Virus record (IMG/VR): IMGVR_UViG_3300030339_000134
Span: 1 to 37,083 of that record
Strand: one strand, 5' to 3'
Length of the DNA: 37,083 bases
Source: a virus
The notes under the pieces are model-generated. The model worked only from the letters and a program-made list of their open reading frames with translations, ran no database searches and was not told the DNA's origin. Below, in pieces: positions 1 to 10,700 of the stretch (the first letter of the stretch is position 1; every line of letters starts with the position of its first letter). The position numbers and the translations under genes are program-made.

Positions 1-2
1 CA

Positions 3-122: not shown

Positions 123-184
123 AAGAATTTAGTTTTATTTACAGGATTGTGTTAAACAAAAATTTTTTAATTAAAAAATAATTT

Positions 185-192: not shown

Positions 193-216
193 CAATTAAT
201 AAAATAAGAATAAAAA

Positions 217-741
217 ATGAAATTAAGATTAGGTTTTGTAAGCAATTCATCTTCAAGTAGTTTTGTCGTTATATTTCCAAGAGAACCAAAAAGTGCTGAA
301 GATGTTAAAAATATACTTTTTAATGAAAATGAAACATTATATGGTGAATATGGTGAATATTCAGTAGATCAAGTAGCTGAAACTGTTTGGAATGATATTT
401 GCAATCAGAACGTTAATGATTTTGATATAGTAAAAGAAGAATTTAGTTATGGCGGATTTGATTGTGAGGATGCACCAAATTATAATGATTTTGAACATAT
501 TAAAGATTATAATGAAAGATGGAAGGCATACGATACCGCGCAAGAGGTATATGGTAAAAAGAAATTGAAAGAATTTTTTAATATCAGAAAACTTAAGTTA
601 CAAAAAATAAATAACGAAAAAGTCGAAGCAGGTGTTTTATATATTTTCGAATATTCAGATAATGATGGTAGTTATGGATCTTCACTTGAACATGGTGATT
701 TATTTAAAAAATTAAAACATGTTAGAATTAGTAAACATTAA
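217..741 (+). CDS. GFVSNSSSSSF-type hypothetical protein
   Basis: This 174-residue acidic protein begins MKLRLGFVSNSSSSSFVV. The GFVSNSSSSSF start recurs, from memory, in uncharacterised proteins of phages and Bacteroidota. The serine run at residues 10-14 could be a targeting or modification site, but its function is unknown. The rest is rich in Asp, Glu, Tyr and Lys with no catalytic motif I can see. It appears monocistronic, with a TATCTTTG promoter element 25 bases upstream and no Shine-Dalgarno sequence before the ATG. Confidence 0.75.
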   Translation: MKLRLGFVSNSSSSSFVVIFPREPKSAEDVKNILFNENETLYGEYGEYSVDQVAETVWNDICNQNVNDFDIVKEEFSYGGFDCEDAPNYNDFEHIKDYNERWKAYDTAQEVYGKKKLKEFFNIRKLKLQKINNEKVEAGVLYIFEYSDNDGSYGSSLEHGDLFKKLKHVRISKH

Positions 742-846
742 CTATAGTAGTATTATTTTAATTATTTCAATATTTGTCGTTTGGATAATATTAATAAAAA
801 TTTTTGATTTAGATGATAAAAATAAAATAAATTGAAAAATAAATTG

Positions 847-854
847 TATCTTTG
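847..854 (+). promoter_or_regulatory. Bacteroidota-type -7 element TATCTTTG
   Basis: TATCTTTG stands 18 bases before the ATG at 873. The spacing suits a short 5' leader, and the same octamer precedes several genes in the window. Confidence 0.5.
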
Positions 855-872
855 TATTATAAAATATACGAA

Positions 873-1122
873 ATGAAAATACAAAAATTTAGACCAATTT
901 AAAAAAGGAGACAGATGTGTTTATGTTTATCCGGTTGGTAAATACCAAACATTGCAGGTTCTTGATAATAATATGATTATTGATAGTGATCCATTTTGGT
1001 ATGAGTATGATAATCATCCAAATAAAGGATATTGGCAATATTCAATTATTGGAAAGTCTAATGAATGTCCAGAAGATTTTTTAAGATTATATACAGAACA
1101 AGAAGAAGGTGATGATATTTAA
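873..1122 (+). pseudogene. Frameshifted small gene
   Basis: The ATG at 873 opens MKIQKFRPI and meets TAA at 900. A frame shifted by one base continues uninterrupted from DQFKKGDRCVYVYP (from 892) to TAA at 1120, about 80 codons in all, with sensible composition (VGKYQTLQVLDNN, FWYEYDNH). One base lost or gained near 885-900, next to an A/T run, explains both halves. It could be a decayed gene, a sequence error or a programmed shift. The KKGDRCVYV stretch resembles small SH3-like beta domains. I do not recognise the family. Confidence 0.5.
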
Positions 1123-1182
1123 TAAATTAAAAAATAATTCAAAAATAATTCAAAAAAAGTTTTTTTATTCGGAAATAAGCAA

Positions 1183-1190
1183 TATCTTTG
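1183..1190 (+). promoter_or_regulatory. Bacteroidota-type -7 element before leader 1
   Basis: TATCTTTG lies about 120 bases upstream of the leader ORF at 1311. This would give a long AT-rich 5' untranslated leader ahead of the first attenuator-like module. Confidence 0.5.
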
Positions 1191-1310
1191 TACTGTAATT
1201 AAGAAATAGAAAAAAACGATATTTTTTTGATTATATATAATAAAAATTAAACTTTTAAAATAAAGTAAACTAAAAAGTAAATAAAAATAATTTTTCAAAA
1301 ACAAAACAAA

Positions 1311-1379
1311 ATGATTCGTAATTTATATATAGAGATGTGTAACGAGATTAATGATGATAATCATAAATTGACTGAATAA
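1311..1379 (+). CDS. Leader peptide 1 (putative attenuator)
   Basis: This 22-residue ORF (MIRNLYIEMC then NEINDDNHKLTE) ends 25 bases before a strong terminator stem. Sixteen of its residues are Asn, Ile, Glu, Met, Asp, Tyr or Cys, the set decoded by the tRNA array that begins at 1717. The end of the ORF, TTGACTGA at 1368-1375, is perfectly complementary to TCAGTCAA at 1409-1416, which overlaps the 5' arm of the terminator. A ribosome at the stop codon would hide the first copy and let the terminator form; a ribosome stalled earlier would leave it free. This is the logic of trp-type attenuators. No function is proven. Confidence 0.6.
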   Translation: MIRNLYIEMCNEINDDNHKLTE

Positions 1380-1404
1380 TATTCTGGCATAATCGCCATA
1401 TAAA

Positions 1405-1438
1405 AAACTCAGTCAACAAAAAAGACTGAGTTTTTTTA
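1405..1438 (+). terminator. Rho-independent terminator of module 1
   Basis: AAACTCAGTC (1405-1414) pairs perfectly with GACTGAGTTT (1424-1433) and a T-run follows. TCAGTC in the 5' arm can pair instead with the end of the upstream leader ORF, so the stem looks conditional. Confidence 0.85.
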
Positions 1439-1442
1439 TTTT

Positions 1443-1706
1443 ATGGCAAACGAAGAAAAAATACAAAAAGATTACGAAGAGTTAAAAAGAAAATCTGAAT
1501 TAACAGAAAAATTTATAAGACTTGCAAACAATTTACAATTTGACGAAAAAGATATTCCGAAAACAGAAAAAGGAATGGAAACAAAAGTTAAGGAGTTAAT
1601 GGAAAGATTAGAAAAAAAGTTAGAAAAAGAAGAAATTGTAGAAGAAAAAAGAAAATCAGGAAAAAGAATAAGGAAAAATTATTATATAAAAAAAAGTAAA
1701 AAATAA
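1443..1706 (+). CDS. Small basic coiled-coil protein
   Basis: This 87-residue, highly charged protein (EEKIQKDYEELKRKSE, then KELMERLEKKLEKEE) is almost surely a helical coiled coil with a very basic tail (KRIRKNYYIKKSKK). Its start lies only about five bases after the terminator T-run, with no room for a promoter. It is therefore expected to be made only when transcription reads through module 1, together with the tRNAs that begin 10 bases after its stop. No domain is recognised; binding RNA is possible but untested. Confidence 0.65.
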   Translation: MANEEKIQKDYEELKRKSELTEKFIRLANNLQFDEKDIPKTEKGMETKVKELMERLEKKLEKEEIVEEKRKSGKRIRKNYYIKKSKK

Positions 1707-1716
1707 AAATATACAT

Positions 1717-1789
1717 TGTGGCGTGGAGCAGTTGGTAGCTCGAAAGGCTCATAACCTTTAGGTCGTTGGTTCAAGTCCAACCGCCGCTT
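1717..1789 (+). tRNA. tRNA with CAT anticodon, initiator-like
   Basis: This is a complete cloverleaf: acceptor TGTGGCG/CGCCGCT, D-arm GAGC/GCTC, anticodon stem AAAGG/CCTTT with loop CTCATAA, and T-arm GTTGG/CCAAC with loop TTCAAGT. The anticodon CAT is at 1750-1752. The first acceptor pair is U1-U72, a mismatch at the position left unpaired in bacterial initiator tRNA. CCA is not encoded. Confidence 0.85.
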
Positions 1790-1802
1790 CTAATTAAATA
1801 TA

Positions 1803-1887
1803 TGCGAGATCGACTGGAGTTGGCACCAGCGGAGGCTCATAACCTTTAACCTGAAAAGGAACGGTGGTTCGAATCCACTTCTCGCTA
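1803..1887 (+). tRNA. tRNA with CAT anticodon and extra variable hairpin
   Basis: Acceptor TGCGAGA/TCTCGCT (U1-U72 unpaired), D-arm CTGG/CCAG, anticodon loop CTCATAA and T-loop TTCGAAT are visible. The variable region carries a small hairpin, CCT-GAAA-AGG, which is not expected in a Met or Ile tRNA. Confidence 0.7.
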
Positions 1888-1980
1888 CTAAAGAGTAAAA
1901 AATAGTGATTTTAATTGTGCTGTAAGGCACTGGATAATTAAAATAAATCTATTAATGACAGCGAATGCTAGTTATTCTCT
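1888..1980 (+). other. Structured spacer between tRNA genes
   Basis: ATTTTAATT and AATTAAAAT enclose a GTGC/GCAC hairpin, and AGAG near 1892 can pair with CTCT near 1976. I see no T-loop or anticodon arm, so I do not call a tRNA. It may guide processing of the polycistronic transcript. Bases 2055-2160 also hold small hairpins (TTACGA/TCGTAA, TCCTG/CAGGA) without a recognisable gene. Confidence 0.35.
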
Positions 1981-1986
1981 TAAAAA

Positions 1987-2054
1987 TGCGAGGTGATAGG
2001 TGTCCGTCGAGGCTCATAACCTTTGATTTCTGGGGTCAGTTCCCAGCCTCGCTT
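1987..2054 (+). tRNA. Divergent tRNA-like gene, CAT anticodon
   Basis: Acceptor TGCGAGG/CCTCGCT has U1-U72 unpaired, the anticodon loop is CTCATAA, and the T-stem is CTGGG/CCCAG. The T-loop reads GTCAGTT rather than TTCRANY, and the D region is several bases short. It may be a decaying copy of the two preceding genes. Confidence 0.5.
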
Positions 2055-2204
2055 CTAAGATTAAGATTACGAAATGTCGTAAGATAATAGTTATTAAGTT
2101 AACCGTAATTGAGTGGTCCTGATGGAATGACAGGATAATGTCCCAATAGGCTGCGCCACCTTAATTTATTTTAAGTAAAAAATTAAAAGAAAAAGATTAA
2201 AATT

Positions 2205-2294
2205 ATGAAGTACAATATGAACATATGTGAAAGTTATCGCAACATTAATATAAATATTAATGATGATGAGAATATTGTATTCTTGGACTGGTAA
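2205..2294 (+). CDS. Leader peptide 2, rich in Asn and Ile (putative attenuator)
   Basis: This 29-residue ORF (MKYNMNICESYRNINI, then NINDDENIVFLDW) precedes a terminator and the main tRNA array. Seven Asn, five Ile, three Asp, two Tyr, two Glu, two Met and one Cys make up 22 of 29 residues; the following array (2449-4370) decodes exactly these seven amino acids. The last codons hold GGACTGG (2285-2291), perfectly complementary to CCAGTCC in and just after the 5' arm of the terminator. The arrangement matches module 1 and the Gln module at 12197. I infer that a shortage of charged tRNA stalls the ribosome early, frees GGACTGG and allows read-through into the array. Confidence 0.65.
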   Translation: MKYNMNICESYRNINININDDENIVFLDW

Positions 2295-2318
2295 ATTAGT
2301 TTTTTTTAGAAAACATAA

Positions 2319-2352
2319 AACCCAGTCCTTCAACAAAGAACTGGGTTTTTTG
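2319..2352 (+). terminator. Rho-independent terminator of module 2
   Basis: AACCCAGT (2319-2326) pairs with ACTGGGTT (2340-2347) and runs into T-rich sequence. Its 5' arm competes with pairing to the end of the leader ORF at 2285-2291. Confidence 0.85.
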
Positions 2353-2422
2353 TTTGTTCATTGAAATGTTGGAATTAAAAAAGTATTTATGTGATATATG
2401 ATGTGAATCATTTAAGCACACG

Positions 2423-2441
2423 ATGGCTAAACGATAGCCAT
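2423..2441 (+). other. Hairpin upstream of a tRNA
   Basis: ATGGCTA-AACGA-TAGCCAT forms a perfect 7-bp stem eight bases before the tRNA at 2449. A matching hairpin with a near-identical loop precedes the tRNA at 2575. Confidence 0.6.
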
Positions 2442-2448
2442 AGAAGAT

Positions 2449-2535
2449 GTTGCGGTATGCAAAATAGGACAAAGCGACCAGACTTTCAATCTGGACTCCG
2501 TATGGGGTGTGCGGGTTCGAGCCCCGTCCGCAATA
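2449..2535 (+). tRNA. tRNA with TTC anticodon and long variable arm
   Basis: Acceptor GTTGCGG/CCGCAAT (G-U at the first pair), anticodon stem CCAGA/TCTGG with loop CTTTCAA, and T-arm GCGGG/CCCGT with loop TTCGAGC are clear. TTC would decode Glu, but the variable arm (CTCC-GTAT-GGGG) is of class II type, so charging identity is uncertain. Confidence 0.75.
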
Positions 2536-2547
2536 CTTTAAAAATAA

Positions 2548-2568
2548 AGTGATTAAATGATAATCACT
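2548..2568 (+). other. Hairpin upstream of tRNA-Glu
   Basis: AGTGATTA-AATGA-TAATCACT is a perfect 8-bp stem seven bases before tRNA-Glu. It parallels the hairpin at 2423. Confidence 0.6.
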
Positions 2569-2574
2569 ACAGAT

Positions 2575-2648
2575 GCTCGGTTCGTCTAGTTGGTCAGGAC
2601 GTCAGGTTTTCATCCTGGAGATCAGGGGTTCGAATCCCCTACCGAGTA
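2575..2648 (+). tRNA. tRNA-Glu (TTC)
   Basis: A standard cloverleaf: acceptor GCTCGGT/ACCGAGT, D-loop with GG, anticodon stem TCAGG/CCTGG with loop TTTTCAT, T-arm AGGGG/CCCCT with loop TTCGAAT. CCA is absent. Confidence 0.9.
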
Positions 2649-2655
2649 CAAAAAT

Positions 2656-2750
2656 GCCGATGTAACGAAACTGGTCTGTAAAACCAATCTGCTTATCAAA
2701 TTTTCGTATTGGACTCTAGCAGTAAGTAGGTTCGAATCCTACCAGCGGCA
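2656..2750 (+). tRNA. tRNA-Tyr-like (GTA) with displaced D-arm
   Basis: Acceptor GCCGATG/CAGCGGC (one mismatch) and T-arm GTAGG/CCTAC with TTCGAAT are clear. The anticodon stem-loop GGT-CTGTAAA-ACC follows only about seven bases after position 9, leaving no room for a D-arm. About 40 bases then separate it from the T-arm; they contain CTGC/GCAG and a D-loop-like CGTATTGG. An alternative fold pairs CCAAT with ATTGG around a 19-base loop. Confidence 0.6.
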
Positions 2751-2836
2751 CAAAAAAATGAAATTGAAGAAAACTTACAGCAAATTAAAAACAATTTGAC
2801 TTTCATTCAAACCAAAATGTTTTCTGTTTTCATAAT

Positions 2837-2920
2837 GGTCTCGGGGTCTGCTTGGTGTGGACGCCTGCCTGTCACGCAGGAACCGAAAGGATCAGGAGGG
2901 TTCGAATCCCTTCGGGACCG
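2837..2920 (+). tRNA. tRNA-Asp (GTC) with extra variable hairpin
   Basis: Acceptor GGTCTCG/CGGGACC, anticodon stem CCTGC/GCAGG with loop CTGTCAC, and T-arm GAGGG/CCCTT. The discriminator G suits Asp. The variable region carries an inserted ACC-GAAA-GGA mini-hairpin, unusual for a class I tRNA. Confidence 0.85.
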
Positions 2921-2930
2921 CAAAAAAATT

Positions 2931-3018
2931 GGGTTGGTTGCTTTAGTTGGTCGACAAGTCAAGACTGTTAATCTTGTGAACGTAAGTTCCACCGTGGGTT
3001 CGAATCCCACCCTTCCCT
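2931..3018 (+). tRNA. tRNA-Asn (GTT) with extra variable hairpin
   Basis: Anticodon stem CAAGA/TCTTG with loop CTGTTAA and T-arm GTGGG/CCCAC with TTCGAAT. The variable region holds a perfect hairpin GAAC-GTAA-GTTC. The acceptor GGGTTGG/CCTTCCC has two central mismatches. Confidence 0.75.
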
Positions 3019-3022
3019 CAAT

Positions 3023-3094
3023 GGTTTTGTAGTTTAGATGTATGAATACCTCCAAGTCATGGGGTGGTTGTTGGTTCAAATCCAACCAGGACCG
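3023..3094 (+). tRNA. tRNA-like, probable GTC anticodon
   Basis: Acceptor GGTTTTG/CAGGACC and T-arm GTTGG/CCAAC with TTCAAAT are good, and the discriminator is G as in the Asp genes. The anticodon loop reads AAGTCAT, which gives GTC but puts A at position 33 where U is near-universal. An 8-base loop is also possible, so decoding is uncertain. Confidence 0.6.
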
Positions 3095-3096
3095 CA

Positions 3097-3150
3097 ATGT
3101 TTTTATAGTTTAATTGTCAGGTTAAACCTGACTACAATGATACAAAACAT
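3097..3150 (+). other. 54-base tRNA-like element without a T-arm
   Basis: ATGTTTT (3097-3103) pairs perfectly with AAAACAT (3144-3150) like an acceptor stem. Inside, GTCAG-GTTAAAC-CTGAC makes a 5-bp stem with a 7-base loop centred on TAA. There is no T-arm and no D-stem. It resembles minimal mitochondrial tRNAs or may simply be a processing hairpin. Confidence 0.35.
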
Positions 3151-3175
3151 AAGTTATTTGAAATATTTAAGAAAT

Positions 3176-3249
3176 AGTGCTGTAGTTCAATTGGTTAGAG
3201 TACCTGGTTGTCAACCAGGAAGTTGCGGGTTCGAGTCCCGTCAGCACTG
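3176..3249 (+). tRNA. tRNA-Asp (GTC)
   Basis: A textbook cloverleaf: acceptor AGTGCTG/CAGCACT, anticodon stem CCTGG/CCAGG with loop TTGTCAA, 5-base variable loop, T-arm GCGGG/CCCGT, discriminator G. Confidence 0.92.
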
Positions 3250-3252
3250 CAT

Positions 3253-3332
3253 GGAATTATTGAGCAATCGGTTGCTTAGCAGACTGTAAATCTGTGGCTT
3301 CGGCATTGGGGGTTCGAATCCCTCTAATTCCA
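3253..3332 (+). tRNA. tRNA-Tyr (GTA)
   Basis: Acceptor GGAATTA/TAATTCC is perfect, the anticodon loop is CTGTAAA, and the long variable arm is normal for bacterial Tyr. The T-loop is TTCGAAT. Confidence 0.92.
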
Positions 3333-3341
3333 CAAAGAATT

Positions 3342-3414
3342 AGTCTATAGGTCAAACGGTTAAGATGTCGCCCTGTCACGGCGCACGGAGCGGGTTCAAC
3401 TCCCGTATAGACTG
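3342..3414 (+). tRNA. tRNA-Asp (GTC)
   Basis: Acceptor AGTCTAT/ATAGACT, anticodon stem CGCC/GGCG with loop CTGTCAC, T-arm GCGGG/CCCGT with loop TTCAACT, discriminator G. Another copy of the Asp isoacceptor in the array. Confidence 0.9.
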
Positions 3415-3421
3415 CAAAAAT

Positions 3422-3503
3422 GTTAGTGTGCCCGAGTGGTTGAAGGGGTCGGCTTGCAAACCCGATAAAAACAAACGCATGTGTTCGAATCACATCACTA
3501 ACT
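3422..3503 (+). tRNA. tRNA-Cys (GCA)
   Basis: Acceptor GTTAGTG/CACTAAC is perfect and the T-arm is ATGTG/CACAT. The anticodon loop TTGCAAA sits in a TCGG/CCGA stem. The variable region is about 13 bases, longer than normal for Cys, with no clear hairpin. Confidence 0.85.
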
Positions 3504-3511
3504 CAAAAAAT

Positions 3512-3593
3512 GACGCTGTGGTTGAATTGGTTTAGGCATCAGTCTGCAAAACTGAGGAGAAATCTAATGTGGGTTCGAGTCCCACCAGCGTTT
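3512..3593 (+). tRNA. tRNA-Cys (GCA) with extended variable loop
   Basis: Acceptor GACGCTG/CAGCGTT, anticodon stem CAGT/ACTG with loop CTGCAAA, T-arm GTGGG/CCCAC. The variable region can form a short GGA-GAAA-TCT hairpin. Confidence 0.87.
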
Positions 3594-3602
3594 CAAATAA
3601 AT

Positions 3603-3676
3603 AGGCGTATCATCTAAATTGGTAAGGATACATCTCTGATAAGGATGCAATTTCGGTTCAAGACCGAGTATGCCTA
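3603..3676 (+). tRNA. tRNA-Ile (GAT)
   Basis: Acceptor AGGCGTA/TATGCCT, anticodon stem CATCT/GGATG with loop CTGATAA, T-arm TTCGG/CCGAG, discriminator A. Confidence 0.9.
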
Positions 3677-3686
3677 CAAAATATTT

Positions 3687-3771
3687 ACCGCAGTGATCAG
3701 AGCGGCTATTGAAGAAGTTTCATAAGCTTTTGTTCGTAAGAACATCGTGGGTTCGAGTCCCACTTGCGGTA
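3687..3771 (+). tRNA. tRNA with CAT anticodon and variable hairpin
   Basis: Acceptor ACCGCAG/TTGCGGT is paired at 1-72, unlike the other CAT genes, which suggests elongator Met or lysidine-type Ile. The anticodon stem GAAGT/GCTTT has loop TTCATAA. The variable region holds a perfect GTTC-GTAA-GAAC hairpin. Confidence 0.75.
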
Positions 3772-3845
3772 CTAAGGAGACTGTTTAAAATTTCATAGAA
3801 CTGATATCCATATAAATGGTGTTCAGGAATCATAGAAAGGAACCA

Positions 3846-3919
3846 GGGTGTATAGCTCAACTGGTTAGAGCACCTGACTGATATTCAGGAGGTTGTAGAT
3901 TCGAGTTCTACTATACCCA
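3846..3919 (+). tRNA. tRNA-Ile (GAT)
   Basis: A standard cloverleaf with acceptor GGGTGTA/TATACCC, D-arm GCTC/GAGC, anticodon stem CCTGA/TCAGG with loop CTGATAT, and T-arm GTAGA/TCTAC. The 70 bases before it hold no gene I can define. Confidence 0.92.
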
Positions 3920-3930
3920 CAACAAGAAAT

Positions 3931-4004
3931 GGTCTGTTATGTCAATTGGTGAGACGGCAAAGCTTATATCTTTGAGGTTAGGGGTTCAAGTCCCTTACAG
4001 ACTA
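3931..4004 (+). tRNA. tRNA-Ile (TAT)
   Basis: Acceptor GGTCTGT/ACAGACT, anticodon stem CAAAG/CTTTG with loop CTTATAT, T-arm AGGGG/CCCTT. A TAT anticodon would read the AUA codon directly, rare in bacteria, which normally use a lysidine-modified CAT anticodon. Confidence 0.85.
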
Positions 4005-4009
4005 CTTAT

Positions 4010-4090
4010 ACTGGTGTACCGTTGGAAGCTTATACCTTCTATACACGTAGCGGGAAGTTGAAAACATAGGTTCGAATCCTATCATCAGTA
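4010..4090 (+). tRNA. tRNA-Ile-like (TAT), D-arm displaced
   Basis: Acceptor ACTGGTG/CATCAGT and T-arm ATAGG/CCTAT are clear. The anticodon arm GGAAG-CTTATAC-CTTCT starts about five bases after position 9, so no D-arm fits. About 25 bases with CGTAGCGGGAAGTTGA then precede the T-arm. Confidence 0.65.
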
Positions 4091-4103
4091 CAAAAATTAA
4101 TAT

Positions 4104-4183
4104 TGTGCCATACACAGCCGATTCTGATAAAATCGAGAACTGTAACGGAGTTGAAAATGTGGGTTCGAGTCTCACTGGCACAA
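4104..4183 (+). tRNA. tRNA-Ile-like (GAT), D-arm displaced
   Basis: Acceptor TGTGCCA/TGGCACA is perfect, as are the anticodon arm CGATT-CTGATAA-AATCG and the T-stem GTGGG/CTCAC. Only about six bases replace the D-arm. A 23-base segment with TGTAACGGAGTTGA lies between the anticodon arm and the T-arm. Confidence 0.65.
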
Positions 4184-4189
4184 CAAATT

Positions 4190-4277
4190 GCTCATGTTGC
4201 TTTAGTTGGTCGAAAAGTTCAGGCTGTTAACCTGATGAGAGTATTCTCCGCCGTAGGTTCGAATCCTACCGTGAGCG
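4190..4277 (+). tRNA. tRNA-Asn (GTT) with variable hairpin
   Basis: Acceptor GCTCATG/CGTGAGC, anticodon stem CAGG/CCTG with loop CTGTTAA, T-arm GTAGG/CCTAC, discriminator G. The variable region holds a GAGA-GTAT-TCTC hairpin like that of the Asn gene at 2931. Confidence 0.85.
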
Positions 4278-4298
4278 CAAATTTCAATTGTTATTTAT

Positions 4299-4370
4299 GG
4301 ATTCGTAGCTTAATGGTGAAGCAAAAAGCTGTTAACTTTGAGATTGCAGGTTCGAGTCCTATCGGAACCG
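4299..4370 (+). tRNA. tRNA-Asn (GTT)
   Basis: Anticodon stem AAAG/CTTT with loop CTGTTAA, D-arm GCTT/AAGC, T-loop TTCGAGT, discriminator G. Acceptor and T-stem each have one mismatch, so it is slightly degenerate. Confidence 0.8.
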
Positions 4371-4383
4371 CATTTTTTATAAA

Positions 4384-4423
4384 TTAAAGTTCAAAAAGTT
4401 CAAATTGGACCTTTGAACTTTAA
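4384..4423 (+). other. Strong hairpin before the HNH gene
   Basis: TTAAAGTTCAAA (4384-4395) pairs perfectly with TTTGAACTTTAA (4412-4423), ending 20 bases before the HNH start. A similar hairpin beginning TAAAGTTCAAAA precedes the endonuclease gene at 5905. In T4, hairpins near homing-endonuclease starts limit their translation, so a similar role is plausible. Confidence 0.6.
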
Positions 4424-4442
4424 TATATAGAATAAAAAACAA

Positions 4443-4997
4443 ATGTCAGAAAATAAAAATTTAAAAAATAAAGTTATTTCATTAAGAAATGAAGGTTTTA
4501 AAATGACTGAAATTGTAGTTAAATTAAATTGTAGTTTATCAACAGTAAAATATCATTGTAGTAAAAATGGATTAGCAGGTAAATCAAAAATATCAGAAGA
4601 TAATTTTGATATTATGAAAAAAATGATAAACGATGGTGTAACTCAAAAAGAAATTTCAGAAAAATTAAAAATATCAATTTCCACAATTAAAAGATATAAA
4701 GATAAATCTTTTGAAGAATTAAATAAATATAGAGGTTATATGCTTTCCTTTATGAAAGATAGAAGAAAAGATATAAAGAAACAAGCTGTTGAATATATGG
4801 GTGGTAGTTGTAAATTGTGTGGATATAATAAATGTTTTACAGCTTTATCTTTTCATCATATTGATCCTGAAACAAAAGATTTTCAAATATCTGGTACAAA
4901 TAGATGTTGGGAAAAAATAAAAAAAGAGTTAGATAAATGTGTTATGTTGTGTACTAATTGTCATTTAGAAGTACATGATGGAATAACAAAAATATAA
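4443..4997 (+). CDS. HNH homing-type endonuclease
   Basis: This 184-residue protein has two helix-turn-helix-like modules (EIVVKLNCSLSTVKYH at 24-39 and EISEKLKISISTIKRY at 70-85) followed by a C-terminal HNH domain with paired cysteines (CKLCG, CTNC), the core SFHHIDP and the final HLEVHDG. It would bind DNA through the N-terminal part and cut with the HNH part. It sits inside the tRNA array between tRNA-Asn and an interrupted tRNA-like gene that starts four bases after its stop, typical of a selfish endonuclease lodged among tRNA genes. Its low GC matches the phage. Confidence 0.88.
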   Translation: MSENKNLKNKVISLRNEGFKMTEIVVKLNCSLSTVKYHCSKNGLAGKSKISEDNFDIMKKMINDGVTQKEISEKLKISISTIKRYKDKSFEELNKYRGYMLSFMKDRRKDIKKQAVEYMGGSCKLCGYNKCFTALSFHHIDPETKDFQISGTNRCWEKIKKELDKCVMLCTNCHLEVHDGITKI

Positions 4998-5000
4998 AAT

Positions 5001-5129
5001 GGTGATGTTAGTCGTAAAGTCAGTAGATAAACTCGGATGACGGTGGTTGATAATTGTGAAAGTCAATTACTAGGAATAACGGCAACTGCAACTTAATTCA
5101 CATTGTAGGTTCGAGTCCTACCATCACCG
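5001..5129 (+). tRNA. Interrupted tRNA-like gene, anticodon unclear
   Basis: GGTGATG/CATCACC is a perfect acceptor stem and GTAGG-TTCGAGT-CCTAC a perfect T-arm, with discriminator G. The centre is nearly 100 bases instead of about 45 and no single anticodon arm is convincing; candidate stems are TAATTG/CAATTA around a 7-base loop and GTGAA/TTCAC. It is probably a tRNA with an insertion. Confidence 0.5.
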
Positions 5130-5298
5130 CAGGGGGAAGCTGTATTCTTGACATAGTTGAATTGACAACGGTAAGTAGAGGTTGAATGTCAGATTTGTCC
5201 CAAAAAAGGAAGATCACAACCTCATCCTACACTTGGTAATAAATAAGAGTAACCAAATTACTGATAAAGCTATAACGGTAAAGAAACTCTTAAAAAAT
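5130..5298 (+). other. Structured non-coding spacer
   Basis: Nested pairings such as GAGGTTG/CAACCTC, TGACAT/ATGTCA and AAGAGT/ACTCTT suggest a folded RNA ending just before the tRNA at 5299. I compared it with tmRNA and group I introns and found no diagnostic element. It could be a tRNA-processing element or a decayed tRNA. Confidence 0.35.
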
Positions 5299-5419
5299 GG
5301 GGAAGTAGCTCAGTTGGTAGAGCAGCGGATGCAAAAAATGTAATTTGTAAAAATTATAAACAGCACAAAAAAACGCAACCTGGAACCGTGTGTCGGACAT
5401 TCGAATCGTCCCTTCCCCA
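5299..5419 (+). tRNA. tRNA-Pro (TGG) candidate with 50-base insertion
   Basis: Acceptor GGGGAAG/CTTCCCC, D-arm GCTC-AGTTGGTA-GAGC and T-loop TTCGAAT are clear. Removing 5331-5380 leaves an anticodon arm GCGG-ATTGGAA-CCGT with U33 and anticodon TGG, plus a normal 5-base variable loop. The insertion is AT-rich and contains a hairpin of GTAATTT with AAATTAT. It is too short for a normal group I or II intron. Confidence 0.55.
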
Positions 5420-5484
5420 CAATTTAATGAAGTAGTGATTCATTATAGAGAAATAAAAAGAAAACTTACAGCGATATAAAAATC

Positions 5485-5550
5485 GTTTCTGTAGTTCAAT
5501 GGTTAGAATGATTCTTCGGAATTGTGTTGGTTCAAGTCCAACTGGAAATA
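5485..5550 (+). tRNA. tRNA-like gene lacking an anticodon loop
   Basis: Acceptor GTTTCTG/TGGAAAT (with wobble pairs), D-arm GTTC/GAAT and T-arm GTTGG-TTCAAGT-CCAAC are intact. Where the anticodon arm should be there is only ATTC-TTCG-GAAT, a hairpin closed by a UUCG tetraloop, so no anticodon is presented. It may be a pseudogene or a tRNA mimic. It is 66 bases long. Confidence 0.5.
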
Positions 5551-5581
5551 AATAAATTGTTTTCTGATTCTCTGAGGCACT

Positions 5582-5740
5582 GGTTATATGGCGGAAATAG
5601 ACGCTATTGTATATTTTTAAGACCAAAAAAGTTTTGAATATAGAATGATGTAAAATGACATATCGAAAGTTGGATGGTAACTATTGACGAATAGTGAGAG
5701 AACCCAACCTTTTACAATAAAGGTAATCCTTTTATAACCA
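5582..5740 (+). pseudogene. Degenerate tRNA-Leu-like gene with insertions
   Basis: GGTTATA (5582-5588) pairs with TATAACC (5733-5739), and a Leu-like D region (TGGCGGAAATAGACGC) follows the 5' arm. A T-stem AAAGG/CCTTT remains, but its loop is reduced to TAAT, as if three bases were deleted from TTCGAAT. A TAA-like anticodon may lie near 5616-5620. The total of 159 bases implies further insertions, including ACTATT/AATAGT. Confidence 0.4.
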
Positions 5741-5746
5741 AATATG

Positions 5747-5818
5747 GGCTCTTCGTATAATTGGTGAGTATGCATCTCTGATAAGGATGTGATCCTGGAT
5801 CGTTCCCAGGAGAGCCTA
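5747..5818 (+). tRNA. tRNA-Ile (GAT)
   Basis: Acceptor GGGCTCT/AGAGCCT, D-arm in normal position (CGTATAATTGGTGAGTAT), anticodon stem CATCT/GGATG with loop CTGATAA, T-stem CCTGG/CCAGG. The T-loop ATCGTTC departs from TTCRANY. Confidence 0.8.
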
Positions 5819-5837
5819 CAAATTTTATAAATATGAA

Positions 5838-5873
5838 AAATAAAGTTCAAAATAGAAAAATATGACTTTATTT
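5838..5873 (+). other. Hairpin before the second endonuclease gene
   Basis: AAATAAAGT (5838-5846) pairs with ACTTTATTT (5865-5873). The 5' arm shares TAAAGTTCAAAA with the hairpin before the HNH gene, and a TTTATATATA promoter-like sequence follows. Confidence 0.5.
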
Positions 5874-5904
5874 TATTTATATATAAGATAAAAGAATATA
5901 TTTT

Positions 5905-6915
5905 ATGCCAAGCATTAAAGATACTGATTATTATAAATCTGGTAAATTGTTAGAAAATTCAAAAAAAGCAAATATTAAATCAACAGAAGTTTTAATCAAG
6001 TTAAAAAAAGAAAGAATTGAAGATTATAATAATAATCCAAAATTATGTAAAGAGTGCCAATGTGCTTTATCTTATGAAAAAAGAAATAATAAGTTTTGTT
6101 CAAGTTCTTGTTCAGCATCATTTAATAATAAAAAAAGAAGTTTAACGGAAGAAACTAAAAATAAAATTTCAAAATCATTAAAAAAAGGAGAAATTGTACA
6201 AAAAAAATGTTTATATTGCGAAAAAGAATTTGAAATAGAATGGAGTTTAAGACATCAAAAATTTTGTAGTAAAAGTTGTGCATCAAAAAATAGGGCTAAA
6301 ACTCCTATTAAAATAAAAAAGACTGAACATCCAAGAGTAATTGAAAAAGTTTGTGAACGCTGTCAAAAGAAATATATTGTGAATTGGTGGTCTAAAGATA
6401 TACAAAAATATTGTGGTCTTAGTTGTTCGTCTAAGCGTCCAAAAACAGCAGGAACAAAAGAAAAATTATCAAAAAATGTATCTGAAAAAATTAAAAACGG
6501 TACATTTAAACCACAATTAACAAGTATAAAATGTTTTTATAAATTTAATGATAAAGAAATTCGATGTGATTCTAAAGTTGAGTATAGTTGTTTGAATTAT
6601 TTTGAAAACAAGTTTGAGGTTTTAGATATTGAAAGATGTGATTTTTTAATTGATTTTAATTATAATGGAATTAATAAAAAATATAATCCAGATTTTAAAA
6701 TAACTACCATTAATGATGTATATATTGTTGAATGTAAAACAATCTTATCATCAAAAGAACTTGTTAGAAAATGGTCATATTATTATGATACAATAGAATA
6801 TAAAAAGATAGTATTAGATAAGTATTGTAAAGAAAACAATTTTTTATCTTTCAACTACAATAAAGATATGAATAGTGTGTTTTATAAAAATTGTAAACCA
6901 CAATTAATTGGTTAA
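5905..6915 (+). CDS. Zinc-finger PD-(D/E)XK-like homing endonuclease
   Basis: This 336-residue protein has three cysteine clusters of the form CxxC then FCS/YCG xxC (CKECQC..FCSSSC near 48-70, CLYCEK..FCSKSC near 102-125, CERCQK..YCGLSC near 150-173), apparent zinc modules for DNA binding. The C-terminal third has SKVEYSC, YNPDF and VECKT in the order E...PD...ExK, the active-site pattern of PD-(D/E)XK nucleases. Location in a tRNA array next to an HNH gene, plus the shared upstream hairpin, supports a homing-type mobile gene. Nuclease activity is inferred from motif order. Confidence 0.7.
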   Translation: MPSIKDTDYYKSGKLLENSKKANIKSTEVLIKLKKERIEDYNNNPKLCKECQCALSYEKRNNKFCSSSCSASFNNKKRSLTEETKNKISKSLKKGEIVQKKCLYCEKEFEIEWSLRHQKFCSKSCASKNRAKTPIKIKKTEHPRVIEKVCERCQKKYIVNWWSKDIQKYCGLSCSSKRPKTAGTKEKLSKNVSEKIKNGTFKPQLTSIKCFYKFNDKEIRCDSKVEYSCLNYFENKFEVLDIERCDFLIDFNYNGINKKYNPDFKITTINDVYIVECKTILSSKELVRKWSYYYDTIEYKKIVLDKYCKENNFLSFNYNKDMNSVFYKNCKPQLIG

Positions 6916-6994
6916 TAATTACTTTCTAAATAAATAAAAAAAATATGAGGAGATTTTACGGATATTAGGTTAAATAAAAAATAACCTTAATATT

Positions 6995-7219
6995 ATGAAA
7001 CCGTTCAAGAAGTCAAAAGTTGCAAGAATGACAACTTGCAGAAAAGAGTACAAAATTGTCACAAATCCTGATATGTGTGAACCATATTGGGATGAGGGTT
7101 TAACATTTTATCCTAGATACAGAAGAGGATTTAAGAACCCAACAAAAAGAATAATGAGTTATCAAGTTAGAATGTATAAAACTTGGAAACACAATAGAAA
7201 GAAACAATGGAAAATATAA
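6995..7219 (+). CDS. Small basic protein
   Basis: This 74-residue protein is dominated by Lys, Arg, Tyr and Trp (MKPFKKSKVARMTT, then MYKTWKHNRKKQW). It has two cysteines (residues 15 and 28), which do not form a zinc motif. The charge suggests contact with nucleic acid; I do not recognise it. It lies between the second endonuclease and the tRNA at 7273. A hairpin, ATTAGGTTA with TAACCTTAAT, ends just before its start. Confidence 0.65.
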   Translation: MKPFKKSKVARMTTCRKEYKIVTNPDMCEPYWDEGLTFYPRYRRGFKNPTKRIMSYQVRMYKTWKHNRKKQWKI

Positions 7220-7272
7220 ACACTGGAAGGTGTTTTTTGCACTATAATAATACGTAATAAAAGTAGTGTATT

Positions 7273-7347
7273 TGCGACATAGCGTAGCCTGGTTAGCGCA
7301 ACCGTAAGATGAGCGGGAGGTCAGTGGTTCAAATCCACTTGTCGCAA
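7273..7347 (+). tRNA. tRNA, probably Ile (GAT), atypical loop
   Basis: Acceptor TGCGACA/TGTCGCA is perfect, with D-arm GCG/CGC and T-arm AGTGG/CCACT. The anticodon stem CCGT/GCGG encloses loop AAGATGA, giving GAT but with A at position 33, as in the gene at 3023. Confidence 0.7.
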
Positions 7348-7361
7348 CAAAATAAATAAAA

Positions 7362-7601
7362 ATGATGGAAACAAAAGTTTTTAAATCTGCAGCTCAAGTT
7401 AGACTTGATGAAGAAAACAGAATAATTAAAGAAATAGATAAAGAGATTAAGAAAAGTGCAAAAAAAGGTGATTTTCACTATTACTGGGATATATCTGGGC
7501 TAAGTCAATTTATGGTAAAAAGTATAATTGAAAAAATAGAAAGTCAGCCAGGTAGATTTGTTAATAGTAAAGGTACTAATTTTAAGATAATTAGGTGGTA
7601 A
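7362..7601 (+). CDS. Small hypothetical protein
   Basis: A 79-residue protein of mixed charge (VFKSAAQVRLDEENRIIKEI, then HYYWDISGLSQFMVKSIIEK). The middle reads like a helix with a small beta-rich end (GRFVNSKGTNFKIIRW). Two ATGs stand in tandem at 7362 and 7365 and either may be used. It lies between two tRNA genes, eight bases before the next. Family unknown. Confidence 0.65.
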   Translation: MMETKVFKSAAQVRLDEENRIIKEIDKEIKKSAKKGDFHYYWDISGLSQFMVKSIIEKIESQPGRFVNSKGTNFKIIRW

Positions 7602-7608
7602 AAAATAT

Positions 7609-7703
7609 TACGCTTTGGAGAAATGGAAAGTAGTCCAAAAAAGATACAATCTCGTCCCGGATCATAAGCGGGAAAGAAATAGGTTCGATTCCTATAGGCG
7701 TTA
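7609..7703 (+). tRNA. tRNA with CAT anticodon and enlarged D-loop
   Basis: Acceptor TACGCTT/AGGCGTT again has U1-U72 unpaired. The D-stem GAGA/TCTC encloses about 28 bases instead of 8-11. The anticodon stem TCCCG/CGGGA holds a loop centred on CAT, and the T-arm is ATAGG/CCTAT with TTCGATT. Confidence 0.65.
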
Positions 7704-7717
7704 CTAAAATTAATTGA

Positions 7718-8206
7718 ATGAATTTTGGAATATATACATTATGTCTTGAGAATTTTTTGAGAAAAAGATTTGCTAAGTTAGAATTAGAGTTTATTAAATT
7801 ACCTATTTTTGAAGGTGGCTGGGGAAATGGATATGTTCTATTGCCGCACAATCATCCACTTTATGAAAAAAATTATGATGATTTAAGAGTTTATGCTCAT
7901 AGAGGATTAACATATAGCAATTATTTTTCAACTAAATTTTTGAATAATTCTGAAAGTTTAGAGTTAGAGATTGATGGTGATGTAAATCGAGAAAATTGTG
8001 AAAAATTTAATAAATATTGGATGATTGGATTTGACACTAATCATTTGAATGACAATTTAACTAATTGTACAAAAGAATATGTTATGGATGAAGTTCAATC
8101 TTTATTAGATCAATGTTTAGATAATGATATTGAAGGAATGAAGAAATATAAAAATTTTTATTCAAGAAGAGATAAGTTAAAGAAATTGAATAGTTTAATG
8201 CCCTAG
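7718..8206 (+). CDS. Hypothetical protein overlapping a tRNA
   Basis: A 162-residue protein with an aromatic middle (EGGWGNGYVLLPHNHPLYEK, then RVYAHRGLTYSNYF) and an acidic second half. The GxGYVxLPxxHP pattern recalls small phage beta-fold proteins, but I do not recognise a family. Its stop codon TAG (8204-8206) lies inside the acceptor stem of the tRNA at 8200, so translation and tRNA processing share sequence. It follows tRNA 7609 by 14 bases. Confidence 0.7.
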   Translation: MNFGIYTLCLENFLRKRFAKLELEFIKLPIFEGGWGNGYVLLPHNHPLYEKNYDDLRVYAHRGLTYSNYFSTKFLNNSESLELEIDGDVNRENCEKFNKYWMIGFDTNHLNDNLTNCTKEYVMDEVQSLLDQCLDNDIEGMKKYKNFYSRRDKLKKLNSLMP

Positions 8207-8280
8207 TAATAGCCTCGTCTTCGAAACGAGAGACGTATAATTGGAAAGTGAGAATGTGGGTTCGAGTCCCACCTGGGGTA
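8200..8280 (+). tRNA. tRNA-Arg-like (TCG), D-arm displaced
   Basis: Acceptor GCCCTAG/CTGGGGT, anticodon arm CTCGT-CTTCGAA-ACGAG and T-arm GTGGG/CCCAC are clear. Only ATAGC stands where the D-arm should be. The 25 bases after the anticodon arm contain CGTATAATTGG, identical to the D-arm sequence of tRNA-Ile at 5747. Confidence 0.7.
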
Positions 8281-8557: not shown

Positions 8558-8923
8558 TCATATATTATATTTAGTTGTATATTTTAATTCTGGAAGATTT
8601 TTAATTACTTCTTCTAATGAATCTGATTGAAATATTACATTATTTTTAAATTCATCTGTTGTAACCTCAAAAAAATCATCAGTTGATCCTTTTAGTACAT
8701 TATTTTCAAAATCATAAAGATATAATCTTTTTAATGTTATTAATTTAGCGGTAGAACTTGTTATTTTTATTAATATAGCATATATAAATTTTGCATCCCA
8801 TACAATATATTTTACATCTTTACATACAATATATTTTACATCTTTATTAGAATTATCTGATTGAGTACCTAACAAAGTATTTGTCTGAAGAATTTTAATT
8901 TCATATGTTTTTATGTATTTCAT
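8558..8923 (-). CDS. MKYIKTYE...KYNI cassette protein
   Basis: A 121-residue protein starting MKYIKTYEIKILQT and ending YTTKYNI, the shared termini of the cassette family. The middle contains a near-tandem duplication (VKYIVCKDVKYIVWD) and beta-rich sequence (FIYAILIKITSSTAKL). The N-terminus resembles T4 capsid-targeting sequences, so packaging into the head is a hypothesis. Its ATG overlaps the TGA of a tiny ORF at 8920-8976 inside the conserved seam. Confidence 0.75.
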   Translation of the reverse strand: MKYIKTYEIKILQTNTLLGTQSDNSNKDVKYIVCKDVKYIVWDAKFIYAILIKITSSTAKLITLKRLYLYDFENNVLKGSTDDFFEVTTDEFKNNVIFQSDSLEEVIKNLPELKYTTKYNI

Positions 8924-8935
8924 AAATTATATTTA
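8901..8935 (-). repeat. Cassette seam repeat
   Basis: Read on the minus strand this is AAATATAATTTATG followed by AAATACATAAAAACAT. It joins the end of the tiny ORF 8920-8976 to the start of the gene at 8923 and matches the seams at 30014-31937. Confidence 0.7.
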
Positions 8936-8976
8936 TTTATGTTTCGTTTTAATTCTTTTTCTTCAAAGTTTGTCAT
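8920..8976 (-). CDS. 18-codon cassette remnant ending KYNL
   Basis: The ORF MTNFEEKELKRNINKYNL starts at 8976 and its TGA overlaps the ATG of the next cassette. Retention of the terminal KYNL in so short a frame suggests a deleted cassette whose seam was kept. Confidence 0.35.
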   Translation of the reverse strand: MTNFEEKELKRNINKYNL

Positions 8977-8997
8977 TTTCTTAAATATTTCAAATTC

Positions 8998-9354
8998 TTA
9001 TTCTGGCGTAAATCCATTTAGGCGACAGGTATAATATGTTTCTTCTCCAGTTGAATAATTAGTTATATCTGCATCGGTTGATGAGTATGAAATGCCGACA
9101 TGAAATCTATTGGATGATGGTTCTGTTGTATATTTTTTATATTTTAAAAATTCAACTGCTTTATCAACTGCTGTTATATTATCTTCTAAATCGTATTCAT
9201 CTGGTATCATTGATTCGCCATCGTCATCTTCCCATCCTTGATCTGAATAATCACCAGTTTCTAAACTTTCAGGTGTTGTACGTTGAAATGTTGTAGTAAT
9301 AGTTTTATCATTTATTGGATTTTCAAATAATTCATTAAATTTTTTTATCTTCAT
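8998..9354 (-). CDS. Capsid-targeting-like hypothetical protein
   Basis: A 118-residue acidic protein starting MKIKKFNELFENPIND, a variant of the MKxIKxFE start and close in style to T4 internal-protein leaders. It lacks the KYNL end. The middle is strongly acidic (WEDDDGESMIPDEYDLED) and the end beta-like with many Tyr and Thr. Function unknown. It is transcribed toward the cassette genes at 8920-8923. Confidence 0.7.
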   Translation of the reverse strand: MKIKKFNELFENPINDKTITTTFQRTTPESLETGDYSDQGWEDDDGESMIPDEYDLEDNITAVDKAVEFLKYKKYTTEPSSNRFHVGISYSSTDADITNYSTGEETYYTCRLNGFTPE

Positions 9355-9415
9355 ATATTATATATTATTTTTTTATTAGAACTTTTATATAATAATATAT
9401 AAAATAAAAAAGTAA

Positions 9416-9700
9416 ATGAATAAAGTAGAAGAAATTTTCAAATCTTGGATGATTAGCTTTGATCCTAGTCAAGAACAAGCAGATTTAGCAATAAAGAGAA
9501 TAGAAATATGTGATGCTTGTGAATTTAGGGTTTTGACTCCTATTGGACCATTTTTTAATATTGCAAAATGCTCTGTTTGTGGATGTAGCTTGAAACAAAA
9601 AATTTTTACACCAATAACATATAAAGATCCAGGTGGATCATGCCCACATTCGAAATGGTCTTTTGTAGAAGATGAATGGTTAAATAGCAAAAATTTATGA
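9416..9700 (+). CDS. Small zinc-ribbon protein
   Basis: A 94-residue protein with cysteine pairs CDAC (32-35) and CSVCGC (about 52-57), then SCPHSKW (near 77-83), consistent with a zinc ribbon. Similar short proteins with a C-terminal CPxxKW motif occur in phages, from memory. It may bind nucleic acid or protein. The next gene overlaps its stop by four bases (ATGA), so the two are translationally coupled. Confidence 0.75.
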   Translation: MNKVEEIFKSWMISFDPSQEQADLAIKRIEICDACEFRVLTPIGPFFNIAKCSVCGCSLKQKIFTPITYKDPGGSCPHSKWSFVEDEWLNSKNL

Positions 9701-10044
9701 AAGAATACTCACTTATACCTAAACATAAATCAGATGTTCAATTTAATGGTGATATAATTTACAATAAGAGTTGGATTGTTCCTTATATTAGAAATGTTAG
9801 AAATGAATTTGATCAGAGATATGATGAGATAAAAAAGCAATATGATAAGTTAATAGATGAGGTTTATTGGAATAACATTATCTATAATATAGAGTTACGA
9901 TTTCAGCCAGTAATAGGAAATAGTTATTATTTATACAAAGATGATGAAAAATATATTATTTCTATTATTGGTCCTGATGAATGGAAAAAAGAATTTGTTG
10001 GAACTTTTCAATTTGAATATACTGGAAAATGGATTAAATGCTAA
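9697..10044 (+). CDS. DUF2452-like protein
   Basis: A 115-residue protein whose second half reads FQPVIGNSYYLYKDD then IISIIGPDEWKKEFVG, the GxxYYLY...Lxxx(P)xEW pattern of the DUF2452 family. The N-terminal half is a helix rich in Tyr, Lys and Asp. Function is not known. It overlaps the zinc-ribbon gene upstream and converges with the ankyrin gene at 10041, sharing four bases at the stops. Confidence 0.65.
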   Translation: MKEYSLIPKHKSDVQFNGDIIYNKSWIVPYIRNVRNEFDQRYDEIKKQYDKLIDEVYWNNIIYNIELRFQPVIGNSYYLYKDDEKYIISIIGPDEWKKEFVGTFQFEYTGKWIKC

Positions 10045-10412
10045 AGATTATATTTTTTTGTTGAAACAAATGCCGGATATTCTTTTTCAATCCATTTTGA
10101 TAATTTTTTATATTCTTTATCTACGCTTAAATCATAGAAATCTACCATTTTTTTTGCAGTAAATGAACCTGTTCCTTTTATAATGCCGCATGCTCTGTGA
10201 TTCATATCTGCGCCAGAGTTAATTAATAATTTTATCATATTTCTATTTCCATAATATGTTGCCCATAATAATGGGGTCCATCCTATACGATCTGTACAAT
10301 TAACGTCTAAGTTAATATCTAATAATTTTTTAACATTTTTCCAATTTCCAGATTTAACTGCTATAATTAGATCAGGTGAACCTACTTCTTCAAATGTTTT
10401 TATATATTTCAT
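10041..10412 (-). CDS. Ankyrin-repeat cassette protein
   Basis: A 123-residue protein starting MKYIKTFEEVGSPD and ending KKYNL. The body has ankyrin-type repeats: AVKSGNWKNVKKLLDINLDV, DRIGWTPLLWATYYGNRNM and IKLLINSGADMN. Ankyrin repeats bind proteins, so this may be an effector that contacts host factors. It shares both termini with the other cassettes and follows a seam directly. Confidence 0.85.
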   Translation of the reverse strand: MKYIKTFEEVGSPDLIIAVKSGNWKNVKKLLDINLDVNCTDRIGWTPLLWATYYGNRNMIKLLINSGADMNHRACGIIKGTGSFTAKKMVDFYDLSVDKEYKKLSKWIEKEYPAFVSTKKYNL

Positions 10413-10425
10413 ATGTTATATTTAT
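10390..10425 (-). repeat. Cassette seam repeat
   Basis: Read on the minus strand, AAATATAACATATG is followed by AAATATATAAAAACATTTGA. It also encodes the NKYNI end of the frameshifted cassette upstream. Confidence 0.7.
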
Positions 10426-10688
10426 TAGCCATAATTTTTATTTCTACTTCTTTTTTTGTTTTTCCAAATGCTTCAATAGAAGATATTGAAAATACTTTGC
10501 TATTATTTAATATCAAGTATTTCAAATATTTTTGGATTATTTAAAAGTGAAATTAGTATATTAAATTGATCTTGGAAAATTTTTATCCAAGCATATTCTT
10601 CACTATCATCATCTGGATTATTTTTAACATATTCCCAATCTATATTTCTATTACATTCACCAGTTTCAAAGTATTTTAAATATTTCAT
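10409..10688 (-). pseudogene. Frameshifted cassette gene (MKYLKYFE...)
   Basis: From 10688 the frame reads MKYLKYFETGECNRNIDW and stops at 10503 after FEILDIK. A frame shifted by one base continues past that point (LNNSKVFSISSIEAFGK, then MANKYNI) to a TGA at 10409-10411 that overlaps the next ATG. The second frame carries the expected family terminus, so the original gene probably ran across and has been frameshifted. Alternatively the 61-residue product is real. Confidence 0.5.
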
Positions 10689-10700
10689 ATATTGAATTTT
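10664..10700 (-). repeat. Cassette seam repeat
   Basis: On the minus strand AAATTCAATATATG precedes AAATATTTAAAATACTTTGA, joining the KKFNI end of gene 10685 to the MKYLKYFE start. Confidence 0.6.

Follow-up and report, generated by a model that had tools for sequence, protein, structure and literature searches.

We describe a class of tRNA genes in which the D-stem strands and the D-loop lie elsewhere in the chain than in canonical tRNAs. Four such genes are found in the window, the whole 37,083-base stretch analysed here (IMG/VR virus fragment IMGVR_UViG_3300030339_000134, 27% GC), which carries about 34 tRNA-like genes from 1.7 to 12.6 kb, all of them on the + strand. The class has its own segment order, covarying base pairs, identity bases that differ by isotype and a wide occurrence in phages. 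The whole is very probably best explained by genuine tRNAs in which an exchange of two blocks has re-threaded the core. Chance is ruled out as the source of the four-gene architecture, which is shared by more than 100 independent phage loci.

The four rearranged genes of the window

The genes at 2656 (GUA), 4010 (UAU), 4104 (GAU) and 8200 (UCG) all begin with a 7-nt acceptor strand, with at least six of the seven pairs formed, followed by U8-A9. Only 5-6 nt separate U8-A9 from the anticodon arm, with no D-hairpin in that gap, and a direct reading of each gene agrees with a preliminary description of this DNA, according to which the D-arm is gone from its usual place in all four. The anticodon arms carry U33 and R37, the T-arm follows after a further 23-38 nt, and the 3' acceptor strand and A73 close the gene. 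The same description had placed a separate D-like arm 3' of the anticodon arm, in the order acceptor, anticodon arm, D-like arm, T-arm. The downstream position of the D segment holds. The hairpin and the four separate arms do not, as the 5' flank of the segment pairs with the 5-6 nt ahead of the anticodon arm and the D-stem strands flank that arm. Covariance modelling, which might have revealed a standard D-arm with a misplaced insertion, favoured the displaced order. Literature searches of open-access PMC papers found no account of this order, which had been called undescribed.

In the Arg/Ile form, three bases just before position 26 (X5') pair with three bases beyond the anticodon arm (X3'), and X3' sits directly before the D-loop motif T-A14-R15-Y-G18-G19. 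The tRNA-Ile(UAU) gene (4010-4090, + strand) has its acceptor strands at 4010-4016 and 4083-4089, U8A9 at 4017-4018, the anticodon arm at 4024-4040, the T-arm at 4066-4082 and A73 at 4090; X5' is CGT (4020-4022), X3' is ACG (4045-4047), the D-loop T-A14-G15-C-G18-G19 spans 4048-4053 and C48 is at 4065. In tRNA-Ile(GAU) (4104-4183, + strand), the corresponding elements are the acceptor strands at 4104-4110 and 4176-4182, U8A9 at 4111-4112, the anticodon arm at 4119-4135, the T-arm at 4159-4175, A73 at 4183, X5' CAG at 4115-4117, X3' CTG at 4140-4142, A14-A15 at 4144-4145, G18G19 at 4147-4148 and U48 at 4158. tRNA-Arg(UCG) (8200-8280, + strand) comprises acceptor strands at 8200-8206 and 8273-8279, U8A9 at 8207-8208, the anticodon arm at 8214-8230, the T-arm at 8256-8272, A73 at 8280, X5' TAG at 8210-8212, X3' GTA at 8235-8237, A14-A15 at 8239-8240, G18G19 at 8243-8244, A20 at 8245 and U48 at 8255.

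Recurrence in viral DNA

A first detector required only an acceptor stem, U8, an anticodon arm preceded by a short spacer and, 18-50 nt beyond that arm, a T-arm; it showed that numerous unrelated phage contigs share the design. A generic pattern scan, which selected on GTARYNG, U8A9 and C32U33, gave 121 unique parses; D-loop anchoring and additions from genomes brought the set to 119 genes, 81 of them non-redundant (<85% mutual identity). Three parses (L165 10624, L067 8695 and L299 1359) were later dropped from this set as mis-read canonical tRNAs. In viral loci totalling 2.54 Mb, 138 matches to the detector were obtained, 135 of them with the D-loop anchor, as against none on reversed and none on Markov-resampled sequence. 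Pattern matches in genome contigs were mostly due to chance, with 8 real ones.

The class has the acceptor stem, the anticodon arm with U33, the T-arm and a 3' A73 or CCA, and lacks a D-arm hairpin between positions 9 and 26. The acceptor strands stand at the gene ends in every rearranged gene, the total length is 74-96 nt, and most of the genes have no canonical parse with the detector. The anticodons found were ACG, TCT, TCG, CCT and CCG for Arg, GAT and TAT for Ile, CAT in three genes, which are probably Ile2 judging from A73 and the loop, and that of Tyr in one gene, the one in the window. Megablast of the window against phages gave no match, almost no tRNAs were found near relatives of its HAD protein, and the UCU form had no match among plasmids.

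Covariation in the Arg/Ile form

Many different X5'/X3' combinations occur, including CGT/ACG, CGA/TCG, CAG/CTG, CTG/CAG, CTC/GAG, CAC/GTG, CCC/GGG, CGC/GCG and ACC/GGT. Among the 81 non-redundant genes, the middle X pair, 11-24, is Watson-Crick in 75 (GC 35, CG 24, AT 12, TA 4), and the pair between position 15 and position 48, the last base before the T-stem, is Watson-Crick in 76 (A-T 52, G-C 23, T-A 1), as compared with means of 34 and 43, respectively, from column shuffles uncorrected for kinship. The X register is 84% paired in this set and slid registers are 19-49% paired. An alignment of 35 Arg/Ile genes that excluded those of the window (A2) shows covariation in every helix, with 15-48 paired in 35/35 (A-U 22, G-C 13); over the whole structure, slid controls drop to 34-43% paired cells. 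Among genes that were not chosen by the D-loop motif, 52/60 X cells are paired, as is 15-48 in 19 of 20. Since the X pairs and 15-48 covary, the D-stem exists, with its strands on either side of the anticodon arm. Pair 12-23 is G-C in 73/78 rearranged Arg/Ile genes; in 243 canonical genes from the same loci it is U-A in 101, G-C in 53, C-G in 43 and A-U in 33. One long helix across the whole spacer (CCGTT/AGCGG at 4010) was rejected, as the comparison gave a fixed 3-bp register before TA-R-Y-GG.

The tyrosine form

Two further scans yielded 25 distinct tRNA-Tyr genes that share one design with the gene at 2656. U8A9 is followed by ACGNCR, the anticodon arm and a class II variable stem (V-stem), CTGC/GCAG, whose loop contains GNCGT and the D-loop ATTGG or similar. 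A long variable-arm hairpin, a class II trait, is thus present in the Tyr form only, and its loop houses the D segment. The D-stem of 5-6 bp crosses the V-stem, which makes a pseudoknot. Across 23 sequences, pairing holds in 94.9% of D-stem cells and 98.9% of V-stem cells; both stems show compensatory changes, which in the D-stem fall at three pairs, and one C-G pair, equivalent to G12-C23, is invariant. The D-stem of Bacteroides phage crAss001 is ACATCA/TGATGT and that of most others is ACGGCA/TGTCGT. Sequence reading, relatives and covariation all place the window gene, tRNA-Tyr(GUA), at 2656-2750 on the + strand, with acceptor strands at 2656-2662 and 2743-2749, U8A9 at 2663-2664, the anticodon arm at 2671-2687, the V-stem CTGC at 2689-2692 and GCAG at 2719-2722, the T-arm at 2726-2742 and A73 at 2750. 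The first strand of its displaced D-stem, ACGAAA (2665-2670, + strand), pairs with TTTCGT (2702-2707), which continues into the D-loop ATTGG (2708-2712, + strand), so that the segment 2702-2712 lies on the + strand within the loop of the long variable arm.

Scores in tRNA finders

A covariance model (R1) built from alignment A2, with the window genes left out, gave 71.2 bits to the gene at 4010, 67.4 to 4104, 64.8 to 8200 and 33.9 to 2656; the best canonical-type tRNA gene of the window scored 26.9 bits. On whole phage records the R1 scores were bimodal, with rearranged genes at 50-86 bits and others at 34 or below. The Rfam tRNA model gave 30.9 bits to 2656, 32.6 to 4010 and 34.0 to 8200, and no match at E<=1 to 4104. 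ARAGORN run on the window reported none of the four, and it overlaps 5/129 rearranged genes. In the GenBank entries checked, the rearranged genes were unannotated. tRNA finders therefore overlook a class of phage genes, which explains gaps in phage tRNA isotype sets such as that for Tyr in crAss001.

Isolate phages and bacterial chromosomes

Arg/Ile-type rearranged genes are carried, mostly inside tRNA arrays and unannotated, by 11 named isolate phages: Stenotrophomonas phages DLP6 (KU682439, 111158-111247) and SOVA965, Xanthomonas phage X1, Limnohabitans phage DC31, Pseudomonas phages Y1-MI and Bitten, Microbacterium phages Pumpernickel and Zooman (two genes), Streptomyces phage Enygma (three genes), Agrobacterium phage Atu_ph04, whose record is sparsely annotated, and Rhizobium phage RHph_I1_18. 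A second rearranged gene of RHph_I1_18, tRNA-Arg(UCU) at 87047-87125 of MN988519.1, overlaps an annotated 5'(3')-deoxyribonucleotidase gene, one end of which may therefore be mis-annotated. The Tyr form is present in crAss001 (NC_049977, 4141-4235) and in about 30 related records.

Rearranged Ile-UAU genes were also identified in Bacteroidota, namely in 3/98 genomes of one family and on contigs of metagenome-assembled genomes. Five of these loci (L426 3385-9988, L425 3945-9554, L336, L337 and L290) have a PhyH-type neighbour, fused to WYL domains in two (Pfam). One locus also encodes TROVE/Ro60 and AAA_33+HD proteins, and an M41 peptidase is among the neighbours in part of them. The loci resemble RNA-repair loci, and the gene may possibly serve as a reserve of damage-resistant tRNA for stress or repair. 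The idea that it is the sole decoder of AUA is weakened by the presence of TilS in all five genomes.

Identity bases and function

In E. coli, a tRNA is recognised as arginine-specific chiefly through A20, C35, position 36 and A/G73, with A20 and C35 foremost (PMC9976931). The base after G18G19 is A, corresponding to A20, in 69/70 rearranged Arg genes and in 2/42 Ile genes. A73 is found in 42/42 rearranged Ile genes and, fittingly, in the Tyr form, and CCA is encoded directly 3' in 53/70 Arg genes. Counted over locus stretches rather than whole genomes, Arg-ACG was represented by the rearranged gene only in 29 loci, by the canonical gene only in 14, by both in 3 and by neither in 16 (Fisher p 0.0014); of the five anticodons tested, UCU alone repeats this trend towards exclusion (p 0.046), and UAU, GAU and UCG show none. 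The array of crAss001 contains 23 tRNAs reported by ARAGORN and no other tRNA-Tyr in the cluster. With their core base pairs conserved, the genes look like working tRNAs with an altered chain order, and functional tRNAs are what they most likely are. The RNAs are quite likely made, charged and used to decode Arg, Ile and Tyr codons.

Proposed topology and its origin

The two adjacent blocks that would have been exchanged are positions 10-21 (S1, the 5' strand of the D-stem and the D-loop) and positions 22-44 (S2, the 3' strand of the D-stem, position 26 and the anticodon arm). The chain would then run 8-9, S2, linker, S1, 48 and T-arm or, in standard numbering, 9, 22-26, 27-43, linker, 10-13, 14-21, 48 and T-arm. 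The D-stem is predicted to form around the anticodon arm and may stack on the anticodon stem. The displaced D-loop could still provide A14, offer R15 to Y48 for the Levitt pair, bring G18G19 to the T-loop and present A20 to ArgRS, and the L-shape would be retained through another topology of the chain. In tRNA-Tyr, where S1 is located within the loop of the class II variable arm, the same exchange would give the pseudoknot. Tandem duplication followed by partial loss may have produced the block swap.

As to the reason for the exchange, phage tRNAs are believed to evade anticodon nucleases (PMC10264068). Septu and retron-Eco7 cleave tRNA-Tyr in the variable loop, and the tRNA-Tyr of phage T5 reportedly resists retron-Eco7 by means of a distinctive variable loop (PMC13096335). 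A re-threaded D-loop/variable-loop face would by analogy be a plausible natural escape route from such enzymes. Whether the swap was selected as host nucleases reading that face would fail to cleave is a suggestion that we make tentatively. The comprehensive claim, of a third basic tRNA architecture that translates, has its D-stem around the anticodon arm, serves phages, among them crAss001, as well as certain Bacteroidota for Arg, Ile and Tyr, and was selected by nuclease evasion, is likewise put forward with some reserve.

Several observations weigh against the reading as re-threaded tRNAs. The helices are short. The X pair 10-25 is formed in only 52/81 non-redundant genes (~64%), and the window gene at 8200 forms only two of its three X pairs. 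Minimum-free-energy folding gives the 3-bp stem in just 15/78 sequences. The 15-48 pair is not Watson-Crick in the Tyr form, and U73 in 39/70 Arg genes departs from the A/G73 of E. coli. The shuffle means quoted above leave phylogeny uncorrected, and constancy at the three motifs on which the pattern scan selected proves nothing.

Alternative explanations

One rival concerns the reason for the swap and leaves the structure as it is, namely that a selectively neutral topological isomer became fixed a single time in an ancestral phage and was then passed on by transfer, to which we give about the same modest credence as to nuclease evasion. The near-invariance of G12-C23 in the Arg/Ile form, together with the equivalent invariant C-G pair of the Tyr form, suggests such a single origin, and an isotype shift from UCU to UAU takes one base. 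Restriction to three isotypes and persistence in phages of Proteobacteria, Actinobacteria and Bacteroides suggest, however, that some selection has been at work.

A role as functional mimics, i.e. non-translating decoys that tie up a nuclease, synthetase or sensor of the host, appears improbable. It would fit the location of the genes in tRNA arrays, the partial protection of the host pool against Septu by a phage tRNA-Tyr acting as decoy or supplement (PMC13096335) and, in Bacteroidota, the closeness of the UAU gene to WYL-PhyH and, at one locus, to a TROVE/Ro60 protein. However, the anticodons are limited to Arg, Ile (including CAT, probably Ile2) and Tyr, the identity elements agree with them, and 53 of the 70 Arg genes encode CCA. 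Moreover, a decoy should be found alongside the canonical gene, whereas the ACG pair tends to exclude each other.

Decaying or pseudo-tRNAs do occur in the fluid tRNA arrays of phages, for example as a fragment at 12504-12540 of the window, and ARAGORN overlaps few of the rearranged genes, but this origin is hardly credible for genes whose acceptor, T-arm, anticodon arm, X helix and tertiary pair are kept by compensatory changes across large divergence, whose identity bases are preserved in each isotype, at whose paired positions no neutral drift is seen and which replace a missing canonical gene. Canonical tRNAs with an intron or insertion, in which a normal D-arm misled the aligner, have real counterparts among the insert-bearing genes of the window (5299-5419, 7609-7703) and are equally far-fetched here, an explanation that covariation already refutes: no D-hairpin precedes the anticodon arm, a canonical parse is lacking for most of the genes, position 48 changes in concert with the D-loop motif and the spacer before the anticodon arm with the 5' flank of that motif, and a total of 74-96 nt leaves no room for a spare intron.

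Genuine tRNAs with exchanged blocks would be a conserved class that breaks the D-anticodon-T order, with an L-shape that can be built by another threading. This bears on how tRNAs are read by aminoacyl-tRNA synthetases and modification enzymes, and the claim is now testable in cultivated laboratory phages.

Other genes in the window

Several tRNA-like genes outside the rearranged class carry unexplained inserts (5299-5419, 5001-5131, 7609-7703 and 11695-11875), which include inserts in the anticodon region, an enlarged D-loop and long internal inserts. Long class II-like variable regions, odd for the isotype, are seen in Asp, Asn, Cys and Met tRNAs at 2837-2920, 2931-3019, 3422-3594, 3687-3772 and 4190-4278. 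An ATP-dependent DNA/RNA ligase-type protein (28835-29527, - strand) and a protein with a weak match to the poly(A)-polymerase/CCA-enzyme head domain (26681-27487, + strand) may have a part in tRNA repair and CCA addition. Some ten small proteins share the N-terminus MK(Y/H)IKTFE and the C-terminus KYN(L/I) with unrelated middles (8558-10933 and 24514-25424 on the - strand, 30025-32400 on the + strand). Host-like metabolic genes encode a cation efflux protein and a three-gene ABC transporter, both from sequence reading, and a rubrerythrin and a radical SAM protein, both from Pfam (13639-14532, -; 16523-20245, -; 32432-32815, +; 33406-34086, -).

Comparison with known tRNA architectures

Like canonical tRNAs (RF00005), the rearranged genes have a 7-bp acceptor, U8A9, an anticodon arm with U33/R37, a T-arm with TTCRANY and a discriminator, as well as the D-loop motif A14-R15-Y-GG, the R15-Y48 pair in Arg and Ile, A20 in Arg and a long variable arm in Tyr. 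Unlike in canonical tRNAs, the D-stem strands and the D-loop lie elsewhere in the chain and the D-stem encloses the anticodon arm. The gap between acceptor and anticodon arm without a D-hairpin is shared with D-armless and armless mitochondrial tRNAs, such as metazoan mitochondrial tRNA-Ser (PMC4013460), but here the D segment is conserved, covarying and relocated, and the genes reside in phage and bacterial DNA. Gene segments are also out of standard order in circularly permuted tRNA genes, in which the 3' half lies upstream and a normal mature tRNA arises after circularisation (PMC3978253). In contrast to those genes, in which the acceptor strands are adjacent and the gene ends fall within the mature tRNA, the rearranged genes have normal mature ends, and the order is altered inside the RNA itself. 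Nuclease-resisting phage tRNAs (PMC10264068, PMC11555353) similarly belong to phage arrays that hold spare tRNAs for nuclease-hit isotypes; they keep the normal fold and vary it by point changes or in a loop, whereas the rearranged class changes its topology. In all of the canonical, armless, class II and permuted-gene tRNAs compared, D comes before the anticodon and the anticodon before T in the mature RNA.

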